Source of the DNA: Oscillospiraceae bacterium
Lineage (GTDB): Bacteria > Bacillota > Clostridia > Oscillospirales > Ruminococcaceae
Direction: 5' to 3'
DNA length: 64,000 nt
Assembly (NCBI GenBank): GCA_021202155.1
Contig: JAJQDP010000033.1
Coordinates: 1 to 64,000 of the forward strand
Shown here: positions 701 through 13,033 of the stretch, in pieces
How positions within the stretch are numbered: the stretch's first letter is position 1
Layout of the letters: every line of letters begins with the position of its first letter
Program-made: the position numbers and the translations under genes
The notes under the pieces: model-generated
Database searches by the model: none
The model's input: only the letters and a program-made list of their open reading frames with translations
What the model was told of the DNA's origin: nothing

Positions 701-901
701 GTACCATGTGGTGGAAGGGCAGTTGAAGCTTAACCACATGAACCATTGCGGGGGGGGTACACGTTCCCCGGCGCGGAATTTTTTCGAGCCTTTTCTGGAA
801 ATTGTACCCATACCAAACCTCCGACACTATTAATAAAGTGCAACGGAGGCATTTTTGTCTACATTTTGTCCTCCTTTGTGCGAAACTAAGGAGGAATTTT
901 T
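701..901 (+). promoter_or_regulatory. Structured 5' leader (riboswitch-like) of adhesin A
   Basis: Stem CATGTGGT 705-712/ACCACATG 733-740; GGGTAC 755-760/GTACCC 804-809; terminator-like CCTCCG 818-823/CGGAGG 844-849 + ATTTTTG; SD hairpin CCTCCTT 870-876/AAGGAGG 888-894. Homologous leader at 9787-9991. Confidence 0.7.
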
Positions 902-3900
902 ATGGCGAAACGCATTATGTGCATCATAATAAGCGTTTTAATGATCGTCTCACTCCTTCCAACCGGCGCGTTTGCGGACAGCGGTGATGATACGGGTGGT
1001 ATCGTCGAAGTCACCGCTTCATCGTCAGGCGACGCCGACTCTGGCGAGACGACGGATGAGGACAGCTCATCAGAATCTGACGGGGAGGAGGTAGTTGAAG
1101 AATTCACGGTAGAAGGAGAAACCGTGTCTGTTGAGGCGGCGTTGACTGGTACAGAAGATTCTGTTGCTTCTATCGGTGACACTACATATGCAACGCTTGC
1201 GGCGGCTGTTGCGGGAGTTTCAACTGATGGCACTCAGACGACAATTACTCTGACGGCTGATACTACAGAATCAGCCAGCATAACCGTTGCAAGCAGTCAG
1301 AACATCGTGCTTGACTTGAACGGCAAGACGGTTGATATGAATAGTCACAATCTGTTCGTAGAGGGAACATTGACGATTCAGGACAGCACAGCTTCAACTT
1401 CTGGACCGACTGTTAATAGTGATTACTCTGTAACCTATACCTCAGGTAAGATTACTTCTACGGTTACTACTGTTTATGTCAGAAAAGGCGGTACTGCTAC
1501 TCTTGCGAGCGGTACGGTAGAATCAACCACGAATATTGCTTTCTCTGCTGAGGGTGATACAACCGGTACAACATCTATTGTTTCTACAGTTAATGTAACC
1601 GGAGGATATGCTGTTTCGGTAGAAGGTGCAATTTTAGTTAAGGGAAAAGGTGCAACGGCAAATATTTCTGGCGGCGTTTTGACCGCTAGTGATAACGCAG
1701 TTGTTGCTGGTAACGGTACTAATAGCGGTACAACCAACTATGGTGGCACCTCAATCACCATCTCCGGTGGTACTTTGATTGGACATATCACGACTTCCGG
1801 TTACGTTGCCTGCGGTATTTACCATCCGCAGAGCGGTACGCTTACTATCTCCGGCGGTACAATCTATGCTGATGGCGGTTGCGGCATCCTCATGCGTGGC
1901 GGTACGCTCACCATGACCGGTGGCACGATTATTGCAACTGGTGACAGCACTACAACCGGTAAAGTCGGCGATTCACGTGTTGTTGTTTCGGATTCAGGTA
2001 TTGTTTACGACTATGACAGCGGCTACTACGATGTAGCTAACGTATCTGTAAGTCTTTCCGGTTCGGTTTCAGTAACTGCCGCGGCAAGCGCGATTTCGGT
2101 TGTAGATACAAGTGGTTCAGCAAGTTCAACTGCGGTTACTGTTTCCGGCGGTACATATACGAATTCTGATGGTAGTGCTGATACGAGCGTAAGCTCATAT
2201 GTTGCAGATGGTTTGACGGTTGATGAGAGCGGTGCTGTTGTAACTGACACAACCACCTACGTTGCCCAGATAGGTGATACAAAGTATGCAACACTGGGCG
2301 AAGCAGTCGCGGCTGTTCCTGTGGGAACTGATGCTGACAATCTCGGCACGGCAACAACAATCAAAATCCTCTGCGACATCGATGATGCTGAGGGCATAAG
2401 TGTTCCGAGCTATGTCGACCTGACGATTGACTTTGACGGACATACCTACATCCTCACCGGACCGGGTGCAGGTTCTACAAACACTCAGACCAATGGCTTC
2501 CAGCTTCTTAAGGATTCCACAATCGTAATGAAGAATGGTACTATCAAGATTGCTGAGGATGCGACCAGGATCTATCGTATCATTCAGAACTACTCAAATC
2601 TGACTCTTGAGGATATGCAGATTTATTCTCAGAATCAGCTTGGCGGAGAAGATTACTGCTTGAGTTTTAACTATGGTACGATTACTTTCAAGGGAAATAC
2701 AAGCATTCACTCATCATCAAGTTCAGTAATCGCATTTGATGTTTACTATTGGGCAAGTGCGTACGAAGCAGGTACTACTGTTGTGTTCGATTCAAGCTAT
2801 ACCGGAACTATTGACGGTGTTATCTTGTACGATACAACCAATGCTGACAAAGCTCACTTAACCATAAATGGTAGTGGTACTTTCGTTGGCGGTATTTCAC
2901 TTTCTTCAAGTGCATCATCTCTTGAAGAAGTTGATATTTCCATCACCGGCGGTACTTTCGGAACTGATGTCAGCGAATACTGCACATCAACCACAACTGC
3001 ATTAGACCTTGATGGAGATGGCACTTACACCGTCGTCACATGCTGGGATGTTTCCAAAAATAGCGATGGTTCTGTAAAGGCATATGCTACAGTTGAAAGC
3101 GACGGCTATGTAACTCTGCACATCATCGGCACAGGTGCTATGAAGGATTACGACGCGGCTTCTGACAGACCTTGGCACGCTGACTTCACTACAGTCAACG
3201 GCGGAACAACTACTTACAGTAAGGAATCCGTAACTGCAGTAGAGATTGAGGACGGCGTCACCAAGATTGGTGCATACGCATTCTCAAGCTTGATGATAAG
3301 CTATGCTATAATTCCTGAGTCTGTAACGACTATTTCAGCTAACGCATTCAGTGCGGCAAGACCCGGAACTGGCGATGACGGCACTTATCTTCCTGTTATT
3401 GTCTACATGGTCGGCGACACTGAATATACTCCTAATTCAACCACGAGTGAGGGCAATGTTATCTTAGCTTACCTGAACGGTGGCTCACTTGACGAGTCGA
3501 CGATTGACGGCGGAGATGGTAACACTAATCTTGCAACTCCTACTAAGGAGGGAGACACCTTCGGTGGCTGGTATCGCAACAGTTCATTCAGCGGTACTGC
3601 TTATACTACCGGTGAAAAGGGCAAGGTCTACTATGCTAAGTGGACAAATGAGAGCTCTTGGGATGTCTCCGAAGACGGAGATGGCTCGGTTCTCGCATAT
3701 GTCTCACTTAATGAAGATGGAACAGTAACTCTTCACATCACCGGTACAGGTGCTATGAAGGACTTCACAAGTAACGATGAACGTCCTTGGCACTCAGGCT
3801 TCACGGTCAGTGGTGCATCTGGAACATTCGCTAAGGAGTCCATCACCAACATCGTGATTGAAGACGGCGTCACCCACATCGGCGCATTAGCCTTCTGCAG

Positions 3901-6412
3901 TACAAAGGTCTCATCCGTTGTAATCCCTGCCTCCGTCGAGTCAATCGGCGAGAACGCTTTCGCGTGGGTCAAGGGCTACACAGATGATAACACCAACTAT
4001 CTCACGATAGTTTACCTCGAAGGCGACACCGACTGGACTCTCAGCTCCGGCGAGACCGCCTACGTCGCCCAGGCATACCTGAACGGCACGTCGCTTCCAG
4101 ACACCATGACAGGTACTCCAACTCTTGAGGAAACCACCCTGACCGGCTACACCGTCATGGGCTGGTACACCGACAGCTCAGCTTCTGGCACAGCAGTCAC
4201 CACTGCCGAAGCCGGCAAGACCTACTACGCCTGCATAGCAGTTGCAAGTATCGGAGATACCTACTACGCAACCCTTGAGAGCGCAGTCTCCGCGGCGAAT
4301 GAGGCAACCGACGGTGCAACCGTAACCCTTCTCGCCGACATCACCCTCGACGCTCAGATCGTAATCACTGGTACAGTAACCCTTGACTTGAACAGCCACA
4401 GTGTAACTCGTAACACCGAGACCAACACTACAGCCGGCTTGATTCTTGTCAGCAGTGGCACGTTCACTGTTCAGGATACAAGCAGTGATGCAAGTGGATA
4501 TATCGACGGCGCAACATATACGCTTAACGGCAGTACATATGTCGGCTATGGCATCTACATAACTGGTGGTACGGTTAACGTTAAGAGCGGCACTGTTGCA
4601 GGCTACCGTGCAATCTATGGTTCTGCTGGTACTCTTAACGTATCTGGCGGTACAGTTTCTGGTACTCAGATTGGTATCATGGATGGAGGCTCGCTTAGTG
4701 TCAATATCAGTGGCGGAACTGTAACAGCAACACATTCTTGTGTTTACATGAATGGCGGCACTGTTAAAGTAACTGGTGGCACTATTGGTGGTACGTCCAC
4801 ATCATACGGTGTTAACGTACAGGCTGGTACAGCCGAAATCAGTAGTGGTACCATCGAAGGCTCTACGGCTGGTGTTATAGCTACTGGTGGTTCCAGTGTC
4901 ACGATTGGAACTGAGAGTTCAACTACTGGACCTAATATTACAGGTGGCTATGAAGCGGTTGAAATTAACACGCAAGCAACTGCTACAACACCGTCAATTG
5001 TAAAGGTATACAGCGGCACTCTCTCCGGCACATCCTATGGTATTTGCATCTATGGCAAGAATTCCAGCACTGATTGCTATAGCCAGTTGTACGTCTACGG
5101 TGGAACAATCTCTGCTACTACATACTTTGGCATCACTGGCAACGGTTCAACCGGTCAGGGATATACTACAATCTATATCTACGGTGGCACTATAACCAGT
5201 ACAAATGGGCAGGCAATCTATCATCCTCAGCAGAATGGCACGTTGTATGTCTATGGCGGAACAATCAAGGGCGACACCGGTATCGAAGTCAGAGGTGGTA
5301 CGGTCATTATTGAAGATATGACCGAAGATGGTTCTTTGACTATCGAAGCGACTGGAACACCTACCACATCCGACCCGAACTACAGTGGTTCAACCACATC
5401 CGGCGCGGCTGTTGCAATTGCTCCTTACAACCTGAGCAACATCAGTGTAAGCATCGTTAGCGGTACTCTTACTGGTGAAACTGCAGTTGCAGTAGTAAAC
5501 CCGAACAGCGTTACAGATTGGAATTACACTACTTCTGTGGAAATTTCCGGTGGTACGTTGACCGGTGCAATTACCGAAGAAATTGAAGATGTTCTTCAGA
5601 TCTCCGGCGGCACCTACTCAACAGAGGTCAACCCCGAGTACTGCGCAGACGGTTACACACCGACAGCGACAACGGATGAAGAGACTCAGACAACTACCTA
5701 CGGAGTTACAGAGTTCTCTCTCGGAATCTACGGTTCTGAATCTACGGTCAAGGCAACCATCGTCTCTGGCGAAGGCACGAACACGATGTACGTAAAGGTT
5801 TCCTCTGCGAACATCAGTAACTACACAACTGAGAAGTATCCGACGACATCAGTAACCTACACGCCAACCGAAACAGTTGACAGCGGCAGTTACGTCTTCG
5901 CCGGCTGGTACAGCGCATCGACTACAACGGATGAGGATGGCAATACAGTAACAAATTATACTGCCCTGTCTGAATTCCCGGAGGATACCACCGCCTACGC
6001 CAAGTTCGTAGATGCGAATGTGTTGACTGTGAGGGCACAAGTTCCGACAGATGCTGGCTCATCTACAACGACCAGTATGAGGCTGATTAGTACAGTTGAT
6101 TCGGCAAACTACAAGAGTGTTGGATTTGAAGTCTATATTGGTTCAAATACCACAAAGATTTCTGCAATTTCAAGTACTGTATATTCAACTATCACTGCAC
6201 TTGGCTCTGAGTACAAACCTACGGAGTTCAGTAGTTCTTCGCTGTACTTCTTTACTTGCACGTTGAAAAATATTCCATCCTCAGGATATGACACTACTAT
6301 TAAGGTCACCCCGGTTTGGACTACATTAGATAGTACAACGGTGTATGGTACAACAAGAGAGTTCACGGTCAACGAGATACTTTCGAGCTATAGTACAGGT
6401 AGTGATAGCTGA
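902..6412 (+). CDS. Large secreted surface protein/adhesin A: signal peptide, parallel beta-helix (SGGT) repeats, BspA-like LRR segments, InlB_B (Listeria-Bacteroides) repeats, conserved C-terminal domain
   Basis: 1836 aa ORF; N-term MAKRIMCIIISVLMIVSLLPTGAFA; many xISGGTxx repeats; VEIEDGVTKIGAYAF LRR_5-like; GGWYRNSSFSGTAYTTGEKGKVYYAKW; SD AAGGAGG. Confidence 0.9.
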   Translation: MAKRIMCIIISVLMIVSLLPTGAFADSGDDTGGIVEVTASSSGDADSGETTDEDSSSESDGEEVVEEFTVEGETVSVEAALTGTEDSVASIGDTTYATLAAAVAGVSTDGTQTTITLTADTTESASITVASSQNIVLDLNGKTVDMNSHNLFVEGTLTIQDSTASTSGPTVNSDYSVTYTSGKITSTVTTVYVRKGGTATLASGTVESTTNIAFSAEGDTTGTTSIVSTVNVTGGYAVSVEGAILVKGKGATANISGGVLTASDNAVVAGNGTNSGTTNYGGTSITISGGTLIGHITTSGYVACGIYHPQSGTLTISGGTIYADGGCGILMRGGTLTMTGGTIIATGDSTTTGKVGDSRVVVSDSGIVYDYDSGYYDVANVSVSLSGSVSVTAAASAISVVDTSGSASSTAVTVSGGTYTNSDGSADTSVSSYVADGLTVDESGAVVTDTTTYVAQIGDTKYATLGEAVAAVPVGTDADNLGTATTIKILCDIDDAEGISVPSYVDLTIDFDGHTYILTGPGAGSTNTQTNGFQLLKDSTIVMKNGTIKIAEDATRIYRIIQNYSNLTLEDMQIYSQNQLGGEDYCLSFNYGTITFKGNTSIHSSSSSVIAFDVYYWASAYEAGTTVVFDSSYTGTIDGVILYDTTNADKAHLTINGSGTFVGGISLSSSASSLEEVDISITGGTFGTDVSEYCTSTTTALDLDGDGTYTVVTCWDVSKNSDGSVKAYATVESDGYVTLHIIGTGAMKDYDAASDRPWHADFTTVNGGTTTYSKESVTAVEIEDGVTKIGAYAFSSLMISYAIIPESVTTISANAFSAARPGTGDDGTYLPVIVYMVGDTEYTPNSTTSEGNVILAYLNGGSLDESTIDGGDGNTNLATPTKEGDTFGGWYRNSSFSGTAYTTGEKGKVYYAKWTNESSWDVSEDGDGSVLAYVSLNEDGTVTLHITGTGAMKDFTSNDERPWHSGFTVSGASGTFAKESITNIVIEDGVTHIGALAFCSTKVSSVVIPASVESIGENAFAWVKGYTDDNTNYLTIVYLEGDTDWTLSSGETAYVAQAYLNGTSLPDTMTGTPTLEETTLTGYTVMGWYTDSSASGTAVTTAEAGKTYYACIAVASIGDTYYATLESAVSAANEATDGATVTLLADITLDAQIVITGTVTLDLNSHSVTRNTETNTTAGLILVSSGTFTVQDTSSDASGYIDGATYTLNGSTYVGYGIYITGGTVNVKSGTVAGYRAIYGSAGTLNVSGGTVSGTQIGIMDGGSLSVNISGGTVTATHSCVYMNGGTVKVTGGTIGGTSTSYGVNVQAGTAEISSGTIEGSTAGVIATGGSSVTIGTESSTTGPNITGGYEAVEINTQATATTPSIVKVYSGTLSGTSYGICIYGKNSSTDCYSQLYVYGGTISATTYFGITGNGSTGQGYTTIYIYGGTITSTNGQAIYHPQQNGTLYVYGGTIKGDTGIEVRGGTVIIEDMTEDGSLTIEATGTPTTSDPNYSGSTTSGAAVAIAPYNLSNISVSIVSGTLTGETAVAVVNPNSVTDWNYTTSVEISGGTLTGAITEEIEDVLQISGGTYSTEVNPEYCADGYTPTATTDEETQTTTYGVTEFSLGIYGSESTVKATIVSGEGTNTMYVKVSSANISNYTTEKYPTTSVTYTPTETVDSGSYVFAGWYSASTTTDEDGNTVTNYTALSEFPEDTTAYAKFVDANVLTVRAQVPTDAGSSTTTSMRLISTVDSANYKSVGFEVYIGSNTTKISAISSTVYSTITALGSEYKPTEFSSSSLYFFTCTLKNIPSSGYDTTIKVTPVWTTLDSTTVYGTTREFTVNEILSSYSTGSDS

Positions 6413-6465: not shown

Positions 6466-6585
6466 GTGAGTTACGAAGAAGCAAGAATAGAAATAATCCA
6501 CTTTGATGAAGACATCTTTACAGGTTGTGTAACCGTCAGTGATACTGGCAACGGTAGTGAATATGATGTTGGTGGTTACTTCTGA
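6466..6585 (+). CDS. Micro-ORF peptide P1 (39 aa)
   Basis: GTG start with AAAGGAG SD: MSYEEARIEIIHFDEDIFTGCVTVSDTGNGSEYDVGGYF; N-term resembles P2-P12. Confidence 0.65.
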   Translation: MSYEEARIEIIHFDEDIFTGCVTVSDTGNGSEYDVGGYF

Positions 6586-6615
6586 TAGCACCAGCGATAT
6601 TGAGGTGTATTGGTT

Positions 6616-6735
6616 ATGTTGAAATACGAAGAACACATAATGGAAATCGTATTCATGAACGGTTATGTTTGGACGTTAGAAACTGCCTCTACACCGTCAG
6701 ATGATGACGACACCCCGTGGGGCAAAATGTACTAA
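6616..6735 (+). CDS. Micro-ORF peptide P2 (39 aa)
   Basis: MLKYEEHIMEIVFMNGYVWTLETASTPSDDDDTPWGKMY; shared KYEEH-x-x-EI-F N-terminus, acidic tail. Confidence 0.65.
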   Translation: MLKYEEHIMEIVFMNGYVWTLETASTPSDDDDTPWGKMY

Positions 6736-7735: not shown

Positions 7736-7805
7736 CGCTCCACGGTAGCTTTTTCTTGCCCGCTGTGCTATAATGGAGGAAAATCCCGCCAAGGAGGCTT
7801 CCGCC

Positions 7806-9680
7806 ATGCGCGACAAAATATCAATAATCTATATAAACCTGCAATTATCCCTCGACTGCAAAACGCTTCTCTACACGATAGAAACTCCTCGCCACACCTG
7901 GAAGCAGTCGCCTGATTCCTGTCCGCGCTTCATCATGGAAGACGGGAGCACCGTCCCGTTCAGCTCTGCCGACGAAATCTCGCACGAAAGCTATAAAAGC
8001 GGCGTCGGGGAGGGGATTCTCTCCCATTATAAATGGAACTCAGGCTTCTCGTTTGAGACACTTTGCTGGATAGAAGTCGTCAAGAAGGCTGTACACTTTG
8101 AGCTCATCCCCGGTGAGGGCTCGCTCCCGTTCAAAAAAGTTTTCTTTCCCGGCTACTTCTCGTTCGAGGAGAAGAGCGACACCGCCTACACCGTGATGCC
8201 GGTTTTGCAGGGAATCCTCATCCCGAACAACTGGGAGAACGAAGTCAGAAAGCTCCCGTTCGACGGGCAGTTCTGCTCGTCGGGCGCATATATGCCCTGG
8301 CTCGGGCAGGTGGAGGGACGTCACGGCTACATCGCCATCTGCGAGACCCCGTGGGACGCCGGTTACTACGTCGACCACCCGGCGGGCGGCTCATATACTC
8401 ATGTGGGAGCATACTTTCTCCCGAGCCTCGGCGAATTCTCCTACCGCAGAAGCGTTCGGTACATATTTTCGGACGATTGCGACTATAACGACCTTTGCAA
8501 GATATATAGAAATTACGCCATCGAAACGGGTCTTCTGACCACTCTCAGGGAGAAATCCGCCCGCAACCCTCTCGTCGACCAGCTCATCGGCTCGGTCATC
8601 GTACACAAGGGCATCAAAAAGCACGTCTCGCCCGATTCGAGATACTATGATAAAGAGAACCCCGAAAACAACGACTCTGTCGTCCCGTTCCACGCCCGCA
8701 CCGTTGAGATTCAGAGGTATCACCAGAAGGGCGTCAAGAAGCTCTATCTCCACCTTGACGGCTGGGGCGAGCCCGGCTATGACAACAAACATCCCGACTA
8801 CCTCCCCGCATGTCGCAAGGCGGGCGGCTGGATAGGCTTCAGGGAGCTCTCGGACACAATCCAGGACTGCGGCTACCTCTTCGGTCTTCACGACCAGTAT
8901 CGTGACTACTACTTAGACGCCGAGACCTATGACCGGGAATTCGCACTCCATGCGCCCGATGGTTCAGTCTTTGAAATGTCTGTCTGGGCGGGAGGACGGC
9001 AGAACTACCTCTGCGCGACGCAAGCTCCCTACTATGTCAAGCGCAACTTCGAGTGGGTTCTCCAGCGCGGCATCCGCTTGCAGGCGTCATATCTTGACGT
9101 CTTCACCTGCAACGAGCCGGACGAGTGCGCCCACCCGATGCACCGGATGACCCGGCGCGAATGCCTCGGCTACCGCAGTGCCTGCTTCTCATACCTCTGG
9201 TCAAAGGGCATCCTCCCGAGCAGTGAGGAGTGCTCCGACTGGGCGATGCGTGAACTCGTTTTCTGCCACTACGGACCCTGTGACTTCATGCTCGAAAGCC
9301 CGGGGAGTCCCCGCCGCGGCGTTCCCGTCCCGCTTTTCAACCTCGTCTACCACGACTGCATGGTGCTCCCGTGGTTCATGGACAAGGTGGACGGCGAGGA
9401 CTACATGCTCTATGCCCTCCTGAACGCCGGCGCGCCCTATCTTGACAGAGACGGAGCATACCCGAACACCGACGGCTCGTTCGACAGCGAAGCCGAGAAG
9501 CGTCTTGACGAGGAGATAGCCCGCTGTGCCGTCGTCACCTCTCTCCAGGAAAAGGTCGCCAAGTGCGAGATGCTCCGGCACGAATTTCTCTCGGAGGACT
9601 ACTCCCGCCAGCGCACCACCTTCTCCGACGGAACAACCGTCACTGTGGATTTGGCGACGGGCGAGTACGAAATTGTCTGA
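7806..9680 (+). CDS. Putative TIM-barrel glycoside hydrolase (DUF5696/GH101-like)
   Basis: 624 aa from ATG 7806 with AAGGAGG upstream; motifs KKLYLHLDGWGEPGYDNKHPDYLP, LFGLHDQYRDYYLDAETYD, LQASYLDVFTCNEPDECAHP. Confidence 0.6.
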   Translation: MRDKISIIYINLQLSLDCKTLLYTIETPRHTWKQSPDSCPRFIMEDGSTVPFSSADEISHESYKSGVGEGILSHYKWNSGFSFETLCWIEVVKKAVHFELIPGEGSLPFKKVFFPGYFSFEEKSDTAYTVMPVLQGILIPNNWENEVRKLPFDGQFCSSGAYMPWLGQVEGRHGYIAICETPWDAGYYVDHPAGGSYTHVGAYFLPSLGEFSYRRSVRYIFSDDCDYNDLCKIYRNYAIETGLLTTLREKSARNPLVDQLIGSVIVHKGIKKHVSPDSRYYDKENPENNDSVVPFHARTVEIQRYHQKGVKKLYLHLDGWGEPGYDNKHPDYLPACRKAGGWIGFRELSDTIQDCGYLFGLHDQYRDYYLDAETYDREFALHAPDGSVFEMSVWAGGRQNYLCATQAPYYVKRNFEWVLQRGIRLQASYLDVFTCNEPDECAHPMHRMTRRECLGYRSACFSYLWSKGILPSSEECSDWAMRELVFCHYGPCDFMLESPGSPRRGVPVPLFNLVYHDCMVLPWFMDKVDGEDYMLYALLNAGAPYLDRDGAYPNTDGSFDSEAEKRLDEEIARCAVVTSLQEKVAKCEMLRHEFLSEDYSRQRTTFSDGTTVTVDLATGEYEIV

Positions 9681-9757: not shown

Positions 9758-9786
9758 TTGACAAGTTGCTCATGGGGGTCTATAAT
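9758..9786 (+). promoter_or_regulatory. Sigma-A type promoter of adhesin cassette B (TTGACA-17-TATAAT) inside nested inverted repeats
   Basis: TTGACA 9758-9763, TATAAT 9781-9786; ACTTGACAAGT 9756-9766; CCCCCATG 9742-9749/CATGGGGG 9771-9778. Confidence 0.85.
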
Positions 9787-9991
9787 AGAAGCATGTGGTG
9801 GAAGGGCAAATAACAGCTTAACCACATGAATCATTGCGGGGGGGTACACGTTTTCCGTAGCTCGGAATTTTTTCCGAGTTTCGCAGAAACTCGTACCCAT
9901 ACCAAACCTCCGACACTAATTATTAAAAAGTGCATCGGGGGATTTTTGTATCTATATTTTCCTCCGAAGTACAACTAAGGAGGAATTTTTT
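9787..9991 (+). promoter_or_regulatory. Structured 5' leader (riboswitch-like) of adhesin B
   Basis: CATGTGGT 9792-9799/ACCACATG 9821-9828; GGGTAC 9842-9847/GTACCC 9893-9898; CCTCCGA 9907-9913/TCGGGGG 9935-9941 + ATTTTTG; CCTCC 9961-9965/GGAGG 9979-9983. Confidence 0.7.
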
Positions 9992-12900
9992 ATGGCAAAA
10001 CGCCTTATGTGCATCATAATAAGCGTTTTAATGATCGTCTCACTCCTTCCCACTGCCGCGTTTGCGACCGATGAATCCGGGGACTCCAACCCCGTCGTAG
10101 AGTCGACCGCCGATGCGGATGAGGGCGATGCAGAAGAAAGTGGGGAAACTGAAGAAGTAGTGGAAGCTGAGGCAGAAGAAGCCGCCGAAGCCACAGAAGA
10201 GACCACCGTCTCCGCCGCCGCTCAGGCAGTTCAGTCCATGATAGACGCCCTGCCGACCGTGGATGAAGTAGCGGCAATGGACACTGACGGACAGAATGAG
10301 GTTTACACCGCCTTCCTCGAAGCTTGTGAAGCTTACGATGCTTTGAGTGAAGAGGATCAAGCCACAGTAGACGATTCCGCCCTTGATACTTTGTCTGATT
10401 ACTTCAACGGAATGGTTTCAACAACTGCTACTATTCCGACTTCTGGAGCACTCACAACCGGTACATATACGTTGACCGGAAATGTTACTCTTACAGGTGC
10501 ATTGACTGTAGCCAGTGGGCAGACAGTTGTTATAGATCTTGCAGGGTATACTATCAGTTATTCGGGGTCTTCTGTCACCCTTTTAATATCTAATACTGGA
10601 ACGCTAACGATTATGGACAGTAGTGAAGCTGGTGCAGGTAAAATTTCGTTTACTTATACAGGTAGCTCATCTGCATACGTGATTAGGACTTCTAATGGAG
10701 GCACTCTTACGGTTGAGTCCGGTGGAATTGAAATTAGCAGTACTAACGGAACAGTTGCTACTATTAATGCGACGTCAAGTTCTTCATCCACGCAAACAAT
10801 AACAATCAATGATGGAACTATCAGCTCAACGAGTAGTGCAGGAAATGCCTATGGAATATATGGACAAGCGAGTAAAGATAAAATTACTGTTAATGATGGA
10901 ACTATCACTGCAACAAGCACATCTGGAAATGCATACGGCGTTTACTCTTCCGCAAGCAATGTTCTGGTCTATACTGCAATATATGGAGGTAGTATAACAG
11001 CAACGGGTGGTGTTGACTCGTATGGAGTTTATGTCAGTGACAATAGCGCAAAAGTTTATGGAGGCAGTATCTCTGCAAATGGAGCTGGAAGCGTGTATGG
11101 AGTGTATGCAAAATATACTACGGTTTCTGACGGAACGATCACAGCATCTGGCGATGGAACAACTTATGGAGTCTATGGTAGCTCATCAGTAACTATTACT
11201 GATGGAACTATATCTTCAAGCACAACAGATAGCAACTCAACAGCTTATGTAGCCAATAAGGCAACAATTTCTGATGGAAACTTTACTGGAACTTTGTATG
11301 AAGGAACTACTGTAACAGGTGGAACGTTTAGCTATGATGTATCTGATTTTGTCAATACAGATACATATCAGGTTAAAAGCAATGGTGATGGAACGTATAC
11401 AGTCAGCGTGAAGAACAGTGAAGAAAATGGTGCAACTGAGCAAAGTGAAAACCATGTTGCTTCAGTTACAAGTAAGTCTGACAGTAGCGACATAAAATAC
11501 TACATTTCGCTTCAGGATGCAATCGATGCCGCTTCTGAAAATGATACGGTTTCGTTACTGGTGGATGTCTCTGAAAACGTTACAGTAGCGGAAAGTCAAA
11601 GTATCACTCTTGATCTTTGTGGATTTACACTGACCACGGAAGATTCTACTGCGAATGTTTCTATCATTTATGTCTACGGTACAATGACCTTAAAGGATAG
11701 TAGTGAAGATCAGACAGGAAAAATAACCGGATCGGGTGCTGAGATACCCAGTACAACTAACAAATTATATGGTGGTGGTATTCGTGTCAAAGGTACTGTA
11801 ACCATGGAAAGTGGCTCGATAACCGGTAACGGAAAGTTAGGAAACTATGTTAGTGGTGCAGGCGTTTATGTTGATGATGGTGGAACATTCACTATGAATG
11901 GCGGAAGCATTAGCGACAACCTCGGAGATTGGGGTGGAGGCGTATATGTCACTTCTGGTGGAACGTTTACCATGAACGATGGTGAAATTTCTGGAAACAC
12001 TATTCAGAACTGGGGTGGCGGTGTTGTTTTATATGGCAATTGCACCTTTACCATGAATGGAGGAACAATTACCGGCAATAAAGGAGTTTATGGCGGAGGT
12101 ATCTATTTACACGGTAGTTCTGATGTTGGCTATCCAACATTTGTAATGACAAAAGGTGCAATCTACAACAATACCGCTACAACTGAAGGTGCTGATATAT
12201 ACTCTACTGGCAGTAGTTCTGTAACTTTGATAGCTGCGAGTGAAATGACAGATGGCACTAAAGACTTTACTGGCTATTGTTGGTATACTGATGCAAGTGG
12301 AAACAGATATGATGCAGAGACGAATGTCACAGATACAGTTGATGTTTCGGAGACATTAACAGGTGCGTACTCACTAATCGCCTCAAAGCCATATACCTTC
12401 ACCCTCGGCATCAGCACTGACTCCACAACCACCGTCCCCGCAGAAATAGCCTCCGGCGAAGGCACAGCTACAATGTACGTCAAAGTAACTTCCGAGAACA
12501 TCGGTAGCTACACAAATGCCGCTTATCCTACAACATCTCTCACATTCGGTGACAATAATACCGGCTATGTATTCGCAGGCTGGTACGAAGACAGCGAGGG
12601 GACAACGACTTGCACAAGTGTTCCGTCAACCGATGCTTATGCCAAATTTGTTGACGAGAATGTCTTAGATGTATGGGTTCAGACCACATCAGGCACATCA
12701 AGCGCATCAGAAAAAACCGATATGAGGCTTGTGAGCACAGTTGATACTCTGCGTTATGCCTGTGTAGGATTTGAAATTACAATCACCCAGTCTACTAAAA
12801 CCTCGACCACAAGTGTATATAAGCAACTCGTAGGTTCTAGTGGAGAGACTGTTTTTAATTATAGTCCAGAGGATATTTGTAGCATTTCAACCTACTTCAT

Positions 12901-13033
12901 GACATATACCATATTCAACATTCCTAATAGTAGCTTTGACACACAAATGACGATCAGAGCTTACTGGACAACTAATGATGGCACTACTGTGTATGGTACT
13001 GCAAGAGTAGTGAGTGTCAACGACGTAATGTAA
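9992..13033 (+). CDS. Large secreted surface protein/adhesin B (paralog of adhesin A)
   Basis: 1013 aa; near-identical signal peptide MAKRLMCIIISVLMIVSLLPTAAFA; NDGTI/MNGGTI beta-helix repeats; C-term MRLVSTVD...VGFEI...YWTTNDGTTVYGTARVVSVND as in adhesin A. Confidence 0.9.
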   Translation: MAKRLMCIIISVLMIVSLLPTAAFATDESGDSNPVVESTADADEGDAEESGETEEVVEAEAEEAAEATEETTVSAAAQAVQSMIDALPTVDEVAAMDTDGQNEVYTAFLEACEAYDALSEEDQATVDDSALDTLSDYFNGMVSTTATIPTSGALTTGTYTLTGNVTLTGALTVASGQTVVIDLAGYTISYSGSSVTLLISNTGTLTIMDSSEAGAGKISFTYTGSSSAYVIRTSNGGTLTVESGGIEISSTNGTVATINATSSSSSTQTITINDGTISSTSSAGNAYGIYGQASKDKITVNDGTITATSTSGNAYGVYSSASNVLVYTAIYGGSITATGGVDSYGVYVSDNSAKVYGGSISANGAGSVYGVYAKYTTVSDGTITASGDGTTYGVYGSSSVTITDGTISSSTTDSNSTAYVANKATISDGNFTGTLYEGTTVTGGTFSYDVSDFVNTDTYQVKSNGDGTYTVSVKNSEENGATEQSENHVASVTSKSDSSDIKYYISLQDAIDAASENDTVSLLVDVSENVTVAESQSITLDLCGFTLTTEDSTANVSIIYVYGTMTLKDSSEDQTGKITGSGAEIPSTTNKLYGGGIRVKGTVTMESGSITGNGKLGNYVSGAGVYVDDGGTFTMNGGSISDNLGDWGGGVYVTSGGTFTMNDGEISGNTIQNWGGGVVLYGNCTFTMNGGTITGNKGVYGGGIYLHGSSDVGYPTFVMTKGAIYNNTATTEGADIYSTGSSSVTLIAASEMTDGTKDFTGYCWYTDASGNRYDAETNVTDTVDVSETLTGAYSLIASKPYTFTLGISTDSTTTVPAEIASGEGTATMYVKVTSENIGSYTNAAYPTTSLTFGDNNTGYVFAGWYEDSEGTTTCTSVPSTDAYAKFVDENVLDVWVQTTSGTSSASEKTDMRLVSTVDTLRYACVGFEITITQSTKTSTTSVYKQLVGSSGETVFNYSPEDICSISTYFMTYTIFNIPNSSFDTQMTIRAYWTTNDGTTVYGTARVVSVNDVM

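Follow-up and report, generated by a model that had tools for sequence, protein, structure and literature searches.

In C. difficile, c-di-GMP riboswitches are associated with surface genes and have terminator-type expression platforms (PMC6200980). The rplJL leader of B. subtilis is a protein-dependent attenuator with an antiterminator and an anti-antiterminator (PMC4538822), and in H. pylori, a variable G-repeat in the tlpB leader is read by the small RNA RepG (PMC8295292). The Oscillospiraceae leader described here resembles each of these systems in part. Like the c-di-GMP riboswitches of classes I and II, it is present in many copies per genome, ahead of genes for secreted surface proteins and other surface functions, and has a putative terminator-type expression platform; unlike them, it has no match in Rfam, and its host genomes lack GGDEF genes. 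With the rplJL leader it shares at least three mutually exclusive helices, of which the last is a putative intrinsic terminator, but it is built from serial CCTCC/GGAGG repeats with a G-tract in front, precedes many unrelated genes, and ends in a hairpin that would be both terminator and Shine-Dalgarno lock. As in tlpB, a length-variable G-tract in the mRNA leader appears to be meant for a pyrimidine-rich RNA segment, although here this segment is itself part of the leader (in cis), and the length variation is known between loci and species. Finally, it is reminiscent of processive antitermination of the LoaP/EAR type, in which leader RNA elements precede long surface-polysaccharide operons in Firmicutes, but neither the window leader nor 20 homologous loci have an EAR match in Rfam.

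The leader lies near the start of the window, by which we mean the whole 64,000-nucleotide stretch of DNA analyzed, and comprises the ~200 nt between a promoter and an ATG at 902. Given the location of the promoter, the RNA is expected to start near 703. The leader folds with −70.8 kcal/mol (z = −3.7), and none of 200 dinucleotide shuffles was equally stable. A first-pass annotation had described a riboswitch-like leader with a terminator-like hairpin and a second hairpin that buries the Shine-Dalgarno sequence, and every hairpin it listed is present in the sequence exactly where it had been placed. It had not assigned the leader to a known class, and this agrees with Rfam: in a scan with Rfam 15, the window leader matched no family at the gathering score, c-di-GMP-I/II and T-box included; the highest-scoring candidate at E ≤ 5 was RsaH (18 bits; cut-off, 50), and the 20 homologous loci gave no match at E ≤ 0.05. 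The features are as follows.

668-696, + strand: sigma-70-type promoter with consensus hexamers, TTGACA (668-673), a 17-nt spacer, and TATAAT (691-696)
705-740, + strand: P1, 5′-terminal capped stem, CATGTGGT (705-712) with ACCACATG (733-740); seen in the fold, sequence not conserved among copies
749-757, + strand: segment G, a C plus a tract of eight G; tract found in the copies, the base before it covarying with the sixth base of 818-823
755-809, + strand: P2, hairpin GGGTAC (755-760) with GTACCC (804-809) and a highly variable interior; GGG:CCC closure and covariation
818-828, + strand: segment a, CCTCCG-A-CACT, 5′ arm of P3 and alternative partner of the G-tract
837-849, + strand: segment b, AGTGCAACGGAGG (AGTGC-AA-CGGAGG), 3′ arm of P3 and alternative (antiterminator) partner of 870-881
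818-856, + strand: P3, hairpin (818-849) plus T-run (852-856, within ATTTTTG at 851-857), terminator-like; anti-antiterminator in the model
870-881, + strand: segment c, CCTCCTTTGTGC, comprising the 5′ arm of P4 and bases of its loop that are complementary to 837-843
888-894, + strand: segment d, AAGGAGG, Shine-Dalgarno sequence and 3′ arm of P4
870-901, + strand: P4, hairpin CCTCCTT (870-876) with AAGGAGG (888-894) plus T-run (897-901), Shine-Dalgarno-sequestering and intrinsic-terminator-like; seen in the fold and in homologues
902-6412, + strand: open reading frame of 1836 aa with a signal peptide, BspA-type LRR_5 and Listeria-Bacteroides repeats (adhesin A of the first-pass annotation; its role as an adhesin is a guess)
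9786-9991, + strand: second leader copy within the window (BLAST match 9786-10000, 81% identity; covariance-model match 9897-9991, 94 bits)
9992-13033, + strand: open reading frame of 1013 aa, secreted protein, behind the second leader copy

The annotation had further proposed that CCTCC at 818-822 pairs with either CGGAGG or the Shine-Dalgarno sequence. Competing pairings do exist, but the best-supported alternatives are different ones, the G-tract with 818-823 and 837-849 with 870-881. The segment 818-822 can also pair with the upstream G-tract (750-757); the last three G of segment G close P2, and the remaining ones are able to pair with 818-823. Likewise, CGGAGG at 844-849 can pair with 870-874.

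We consider it likely that the leader is a cis-acting attenuator made of a chain of five segments with mutually exclusive folds, triggered by a trans factor or by pausing rather than by a ligand. In this model, every segment of the chain (G-tract, a, b, c, and d) would be complementary to its neighbors. Left alone, the RNA would pair a with b (P3) and c with d (P4), which is the OFF state: P4 and the U's that follow would stop transcription early, and RNA that is read through would be poorly translated, with the Shine-Dalgarno sequence inside P4. In the ON state, the G-tract would hold a, extending the P2 stem and releasing b, and free b would form about 11 bp with c; P4 would thereby be prevented, the gene transcribed, and the Shine-Dalgarno sequence exposed. 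Some signal would favor the G-tract:a helix or hinder P3. As this trigger, a protein or other trans-acting factor, or pausing of the RNA polymerase, is more likely than a small-molecule ligand. We infer that the switch acts by termination and in this direction, with OFF as the default. A U-rich stretch of the type ATTTTT..ATCTRTATTTT between P3 and P4 (850-869 in the window) recurs in different subtypes and could be a pause site for RNA polymerase.

The leader is a real, previously undescribed RNA family. In its own genome, 11 copies were found by BLAST and 18, two of them in the window, by covariance model, which is far beyond chance. The covariance model (R2) covers the 3′ part of the leader, and its E values are rough because its calibration was short; at E ≤ 1e-3, it finds 82 copies in 11 of the 31 species of the genus. 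Further copies in sixty relatives were essentially all in the same genus, and 299 genomes sampled elsewhere in the family had no genuine copies, only weak covariance-model matches (E = 0.001 to 0.008) that lack the G-tract and were dropped as chance. A scan for the exact pattern in one genome per GTDB species returned 19 stretches, all in metagenome-assembled genomes named Oscillospiraceae bacterium, Ruminococcus sp., or Clostridiales bacterium. None of the viral contigs searched holds the motif. Text searches of the literature found no paper describing the element, and two large motif surveys contain no Ruminococcus or Oscillospira names in their main text, to which this statement is limited. 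Although new as a family, the element is best read as one of a known kind, a transcription attenuator, which to judge from the sequence would also lock the Shine-Dalgarno sequence: its last hairpin is terminator-like and followed by a U-run, and a mutually exclusive antiterminator helix is backed by comparison.

The order of parts is kept in nearly every copy. Most homologous leaders are preceded by a TTGACA-17-TATAAT-like promoter with the same 17-nt spacing, and nearly all have P1 near the start, with a freely varying sequence. Then follow TGY and a tract of 5 to 9 G (mostly 6 or 7), P2 (closed by GGG:CCC in 65 of the 66 distinct sequences), CAA or AAA, P3 as CCTCCG-A-CACT...AGTGC..CGGRGG, a U-rich linker, and P4 as CCTCC...GGAGG with a U-run. 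The last of these, P4 with its U-run, is found in essentially all 82 copies. It holds the Shine-Dalgarno sequence in the window copy and in most others, and in about a dozen copies (for example L110, L128, L129, L145, L152, and L177), it is a free-standing terminator-like stem, the gene having its own start site further downstream. These dozen copies indicate that the switch works at least partly at the level of transcription. The earlier assignment of P3 as the terminator-like hairpin is correct in that a T-run is present, but across the copies it is P4, the Shine-Dalgarno hairpin, that is most consistently terminator-like. A look by eye at the leaders revealed no conserved start codon or reading frame of a leader peptide. 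Two further loci, L035 (G009:C9:68127) and L163 (G027:C2:10240), share the P1-type hairpin, the end with the Shine-Dalgarno sequence, and the signal peptide, but no G-tract/P2 core is recognizable in them, which suggests diverged or alternative platforms.

The first-pass annotation had made its reading depend on covariation among homologous leaders, and such covariation is indeed found. By comparison of homologues, P2, P3, and P4 are established, as are the family and its gene context; the independent support for the G:a and b:c helices is thinner. P2 has a covariation score of 0.379 compared to at most 0.116 for slid controls, with 33 double-change cells, which 0 of 500 shuffles reached. In 76 distinct sequences, the double-change cells of P3 and P4 add up to 65, compared to 16.6 in shuffles (0 of 500 reached this), although the alignment used (A2) was fitted to the structure and thus favors it. 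All eight pairs of P4 show double changes somewhere in these sequences, and the pairs of P3 are formed in 92 to 98% of cells. In 24 core sequences, the G:a helix is paired in 100% of cells; its sole varying pair is C-G in 15, U-A in 6, and U-G in 3, with zero mismatches. Among all copies, an A at position a6 is found only where a T precedes the G-tract (9 of 9; Fisher p = 8e-7, uncorrected for relatedness). Since the a6 base is mispaired within P3 in several copies, P3 alone does not explain this covariation, which amounts to one variable base pair, changed independently perhaps five or six times. The b:c pairs are formed in 98.4% of core cells and show no covariation beyond shuffles, because the core is nearly invariant. 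The loop of P4, in turn, shows complementarity to the 5′ part of b: summed over 35 nonredundant copies, the energy is −172.3 compared to −93.5 (standard deviation, 9.55) for shuffled loops, and 0 of 300 shuffles reached it. Examples are L113 (CAGGTGCT:AGTGCCTG) and L135 (AGTGC:GCACT). As this complementarity is not required by P4, it is the best evidence for the antiterminator fold.

The minimum-energy folds of the growing chain of the window leader pass through both states. G:a is formed at 825 to 845 and a:b at 849 to 877, G:a together with b:c returns at 881 to 889, and a:b with c:d prevails from 893 on. For the window copy, the gap between the ON and P3 folds is 0.4 kcal/mol when d is about to emerge. 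Among 78 copies, ON is the minimum-energy fold before d in only 9, with a median gap of 2.9 kcal/mol, and at full length, OFF is the more stable fold by a median of 9.4 kcal/mol. Since ON is generally less stable, the default should be OFF, and something must favor ON. When P3 and P4 are forbidden, a often pairs with d instead of the G-tract, and a third fold, a:d with b:c, is close in energy.

Could the region of G-tract, P2, and bulge be an aptamer whose small-molecule ligand stabilizes G:a? The first-pass annotation had spoken of a riboswitch-like leader, and its structured, switch-like layout with a sequestered Shine-Dalgarno sequence holds. This layout would fit a riboswitch, as would the many copies in one genome over a coherent set of surface genes. 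P2 is conserved, and so are a few unpaired bases (the invariant A after GGGU, the AA before CCTCC, and the T after GTGC). Known aptamers usually keep a large invariant pocket. Here, the conserved bases are nearly all explained by the competing helices, and hardly any are found outside them, which makes a typical aptamer less likely; P1 is free in sequence, the interior of P2 ranges from ~18 to 75 nt with widely different sequences, and the bulge between P2 and a ranges from ~5 to 11 nt. We regard a ligand-binding riboswitch as unlikely. Somewhat less probable still is purely translational control, with P4 only hiding the Shine-Dalgarno sequence and P3 as a terminator-like bystander. The location of the Shine-Dalgarno sequence in most copies would fit, and an open reading frame of at least 100 aa lies directly behind P4 in 64 of the 82 copies. 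However, at the loci with a free-standing P4 named above, at L136, and at others, P4 has no start signals, yet the strong stem and the U-run are kept.

Variation of the G-tract itself could also be the point. If slippage changed the length of the tract, it would set the strength of G:a and, hence, the expression of each surface gene; the tlpB leader of H. pylori, too, has a variable G-repeat (PMC8295292). Tract length varies from 5 to 9 and differs in 7 of 22 near-identical pairs, while the ~50 to 110 nt that follow differ in length in 5 of the 22; the median gap between ON and P3 falls from 3.4 kcal/mol with six G to 2.7 with seven and 0.2 with eight. Nevertheless, tract length and gap are weakly rank-correlated (rho = −0.20, p = 0.07), and among close pairs the tract hardly affects the gap. 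Tracts of 6 or 7 G are short for high-rate slippage. A role of the tract in phase variation is possible, but as the explanation of the leader we judge it about as improbable as purely translational control. Recent duplication or gene conversion of a cassette of leader and signal peptide among paralogous surface genes, with no regulatory role, would account for the copy at C44:44493, which is identical over 221 nt and has the N-terminal coding region in common with the window copy. It is contradicted by compensatory changes, which are seen in P2, in the G:a pair, and in each pair of P4, and copies are also found before unrelated genes; we consider it very improbable. Attenuation by competing helices is the reading we prefer.

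As for the signal to which such an attenuator would respond, c-di-GMP was rejected. GGDEF genes are found in 0 of 11 element-bearing genomes, that of the window included, and in 18 of 20 element-free genomes; expressed for the 31 genomes of the genus, 11 have only the element, 18 have only GGDEF, 2 have neither, and none has both. Control of the leader by c-di-GMP is unlikely because the element-bearing genomes have no GGDEF gene, and the mutual exclusion may reflect a single clade. CsrA and LoaP were rejected as trans signals: csrA is present in 0 of the 31 genomes, and LoaP has no match above the curated cut-off in any of them, each genome having one NusG-like gene. ANTAR does not follow the element, one gene being present in 29 of the 31 genomes irrespective of it; paired hexaloop hairpins were not seen by eye among the leaders.

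A signal-peptide-like start is found in 62 of the 64 open reading frames directly behind P4. L152 precedes a Wzz-type gene of a capsule operon, and L177 is alike by sequence. Other downstream genes encode PP2C (L145 and L147), FHA (L110), and Sel1 (L129) proteins, a dynamin-like GTPase (L174), and an acyltransferase (L155), and some copies precede genes for short peptides. At L156 (G027:C2:397300-398980), the leader is followed by a gene for a 60-aa peptide and then by one for a radical SAM protein, and the arrangement resembles a RiPP (modified-peptide) locus governed by this leader.

It is tempting, if rather speculative, to see in the element the read-out of an unrecognized global signal in a clade without c-di-GMP synthases, coordinating secreted surface proteins, capsule synthesis, and peptide-modification operons through a single RNA switch that is present 18 times in this genome. 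The element would amount to an RNA regulon, not described before, of uncultured gut-type Oscillospiraceae, in which one switch serves a capsule operon, small modified peptides, and numerous genes for surface proteins, and the GGDEF contrast is a lead on what replaced c-di-GMP control. The design would be one in which a single chain of near repeats governs termination and ribosome access jointly, and the arms of the switch are directly testable in a laboratory reporter.

Directly behind the 1836-aa gene, two short open reading frames on the + strand of the window (6467-6586 and about 6619-6735) encode ~38-aa peptides (VSYEEARIEIIHFDED... and MLKYEEHIMEIVFMNG...), which resemble the short peptides directly behind L016, L118, and L158 (MDKVYEEPKFVIIKFSAKD...). 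Between the two genes preceded by the leader, also on the + strand (7773-9680), lies an open reading frame of 635 aa with a DUF5696 domain and weak similarity to GH101/GH129 glycosidases.
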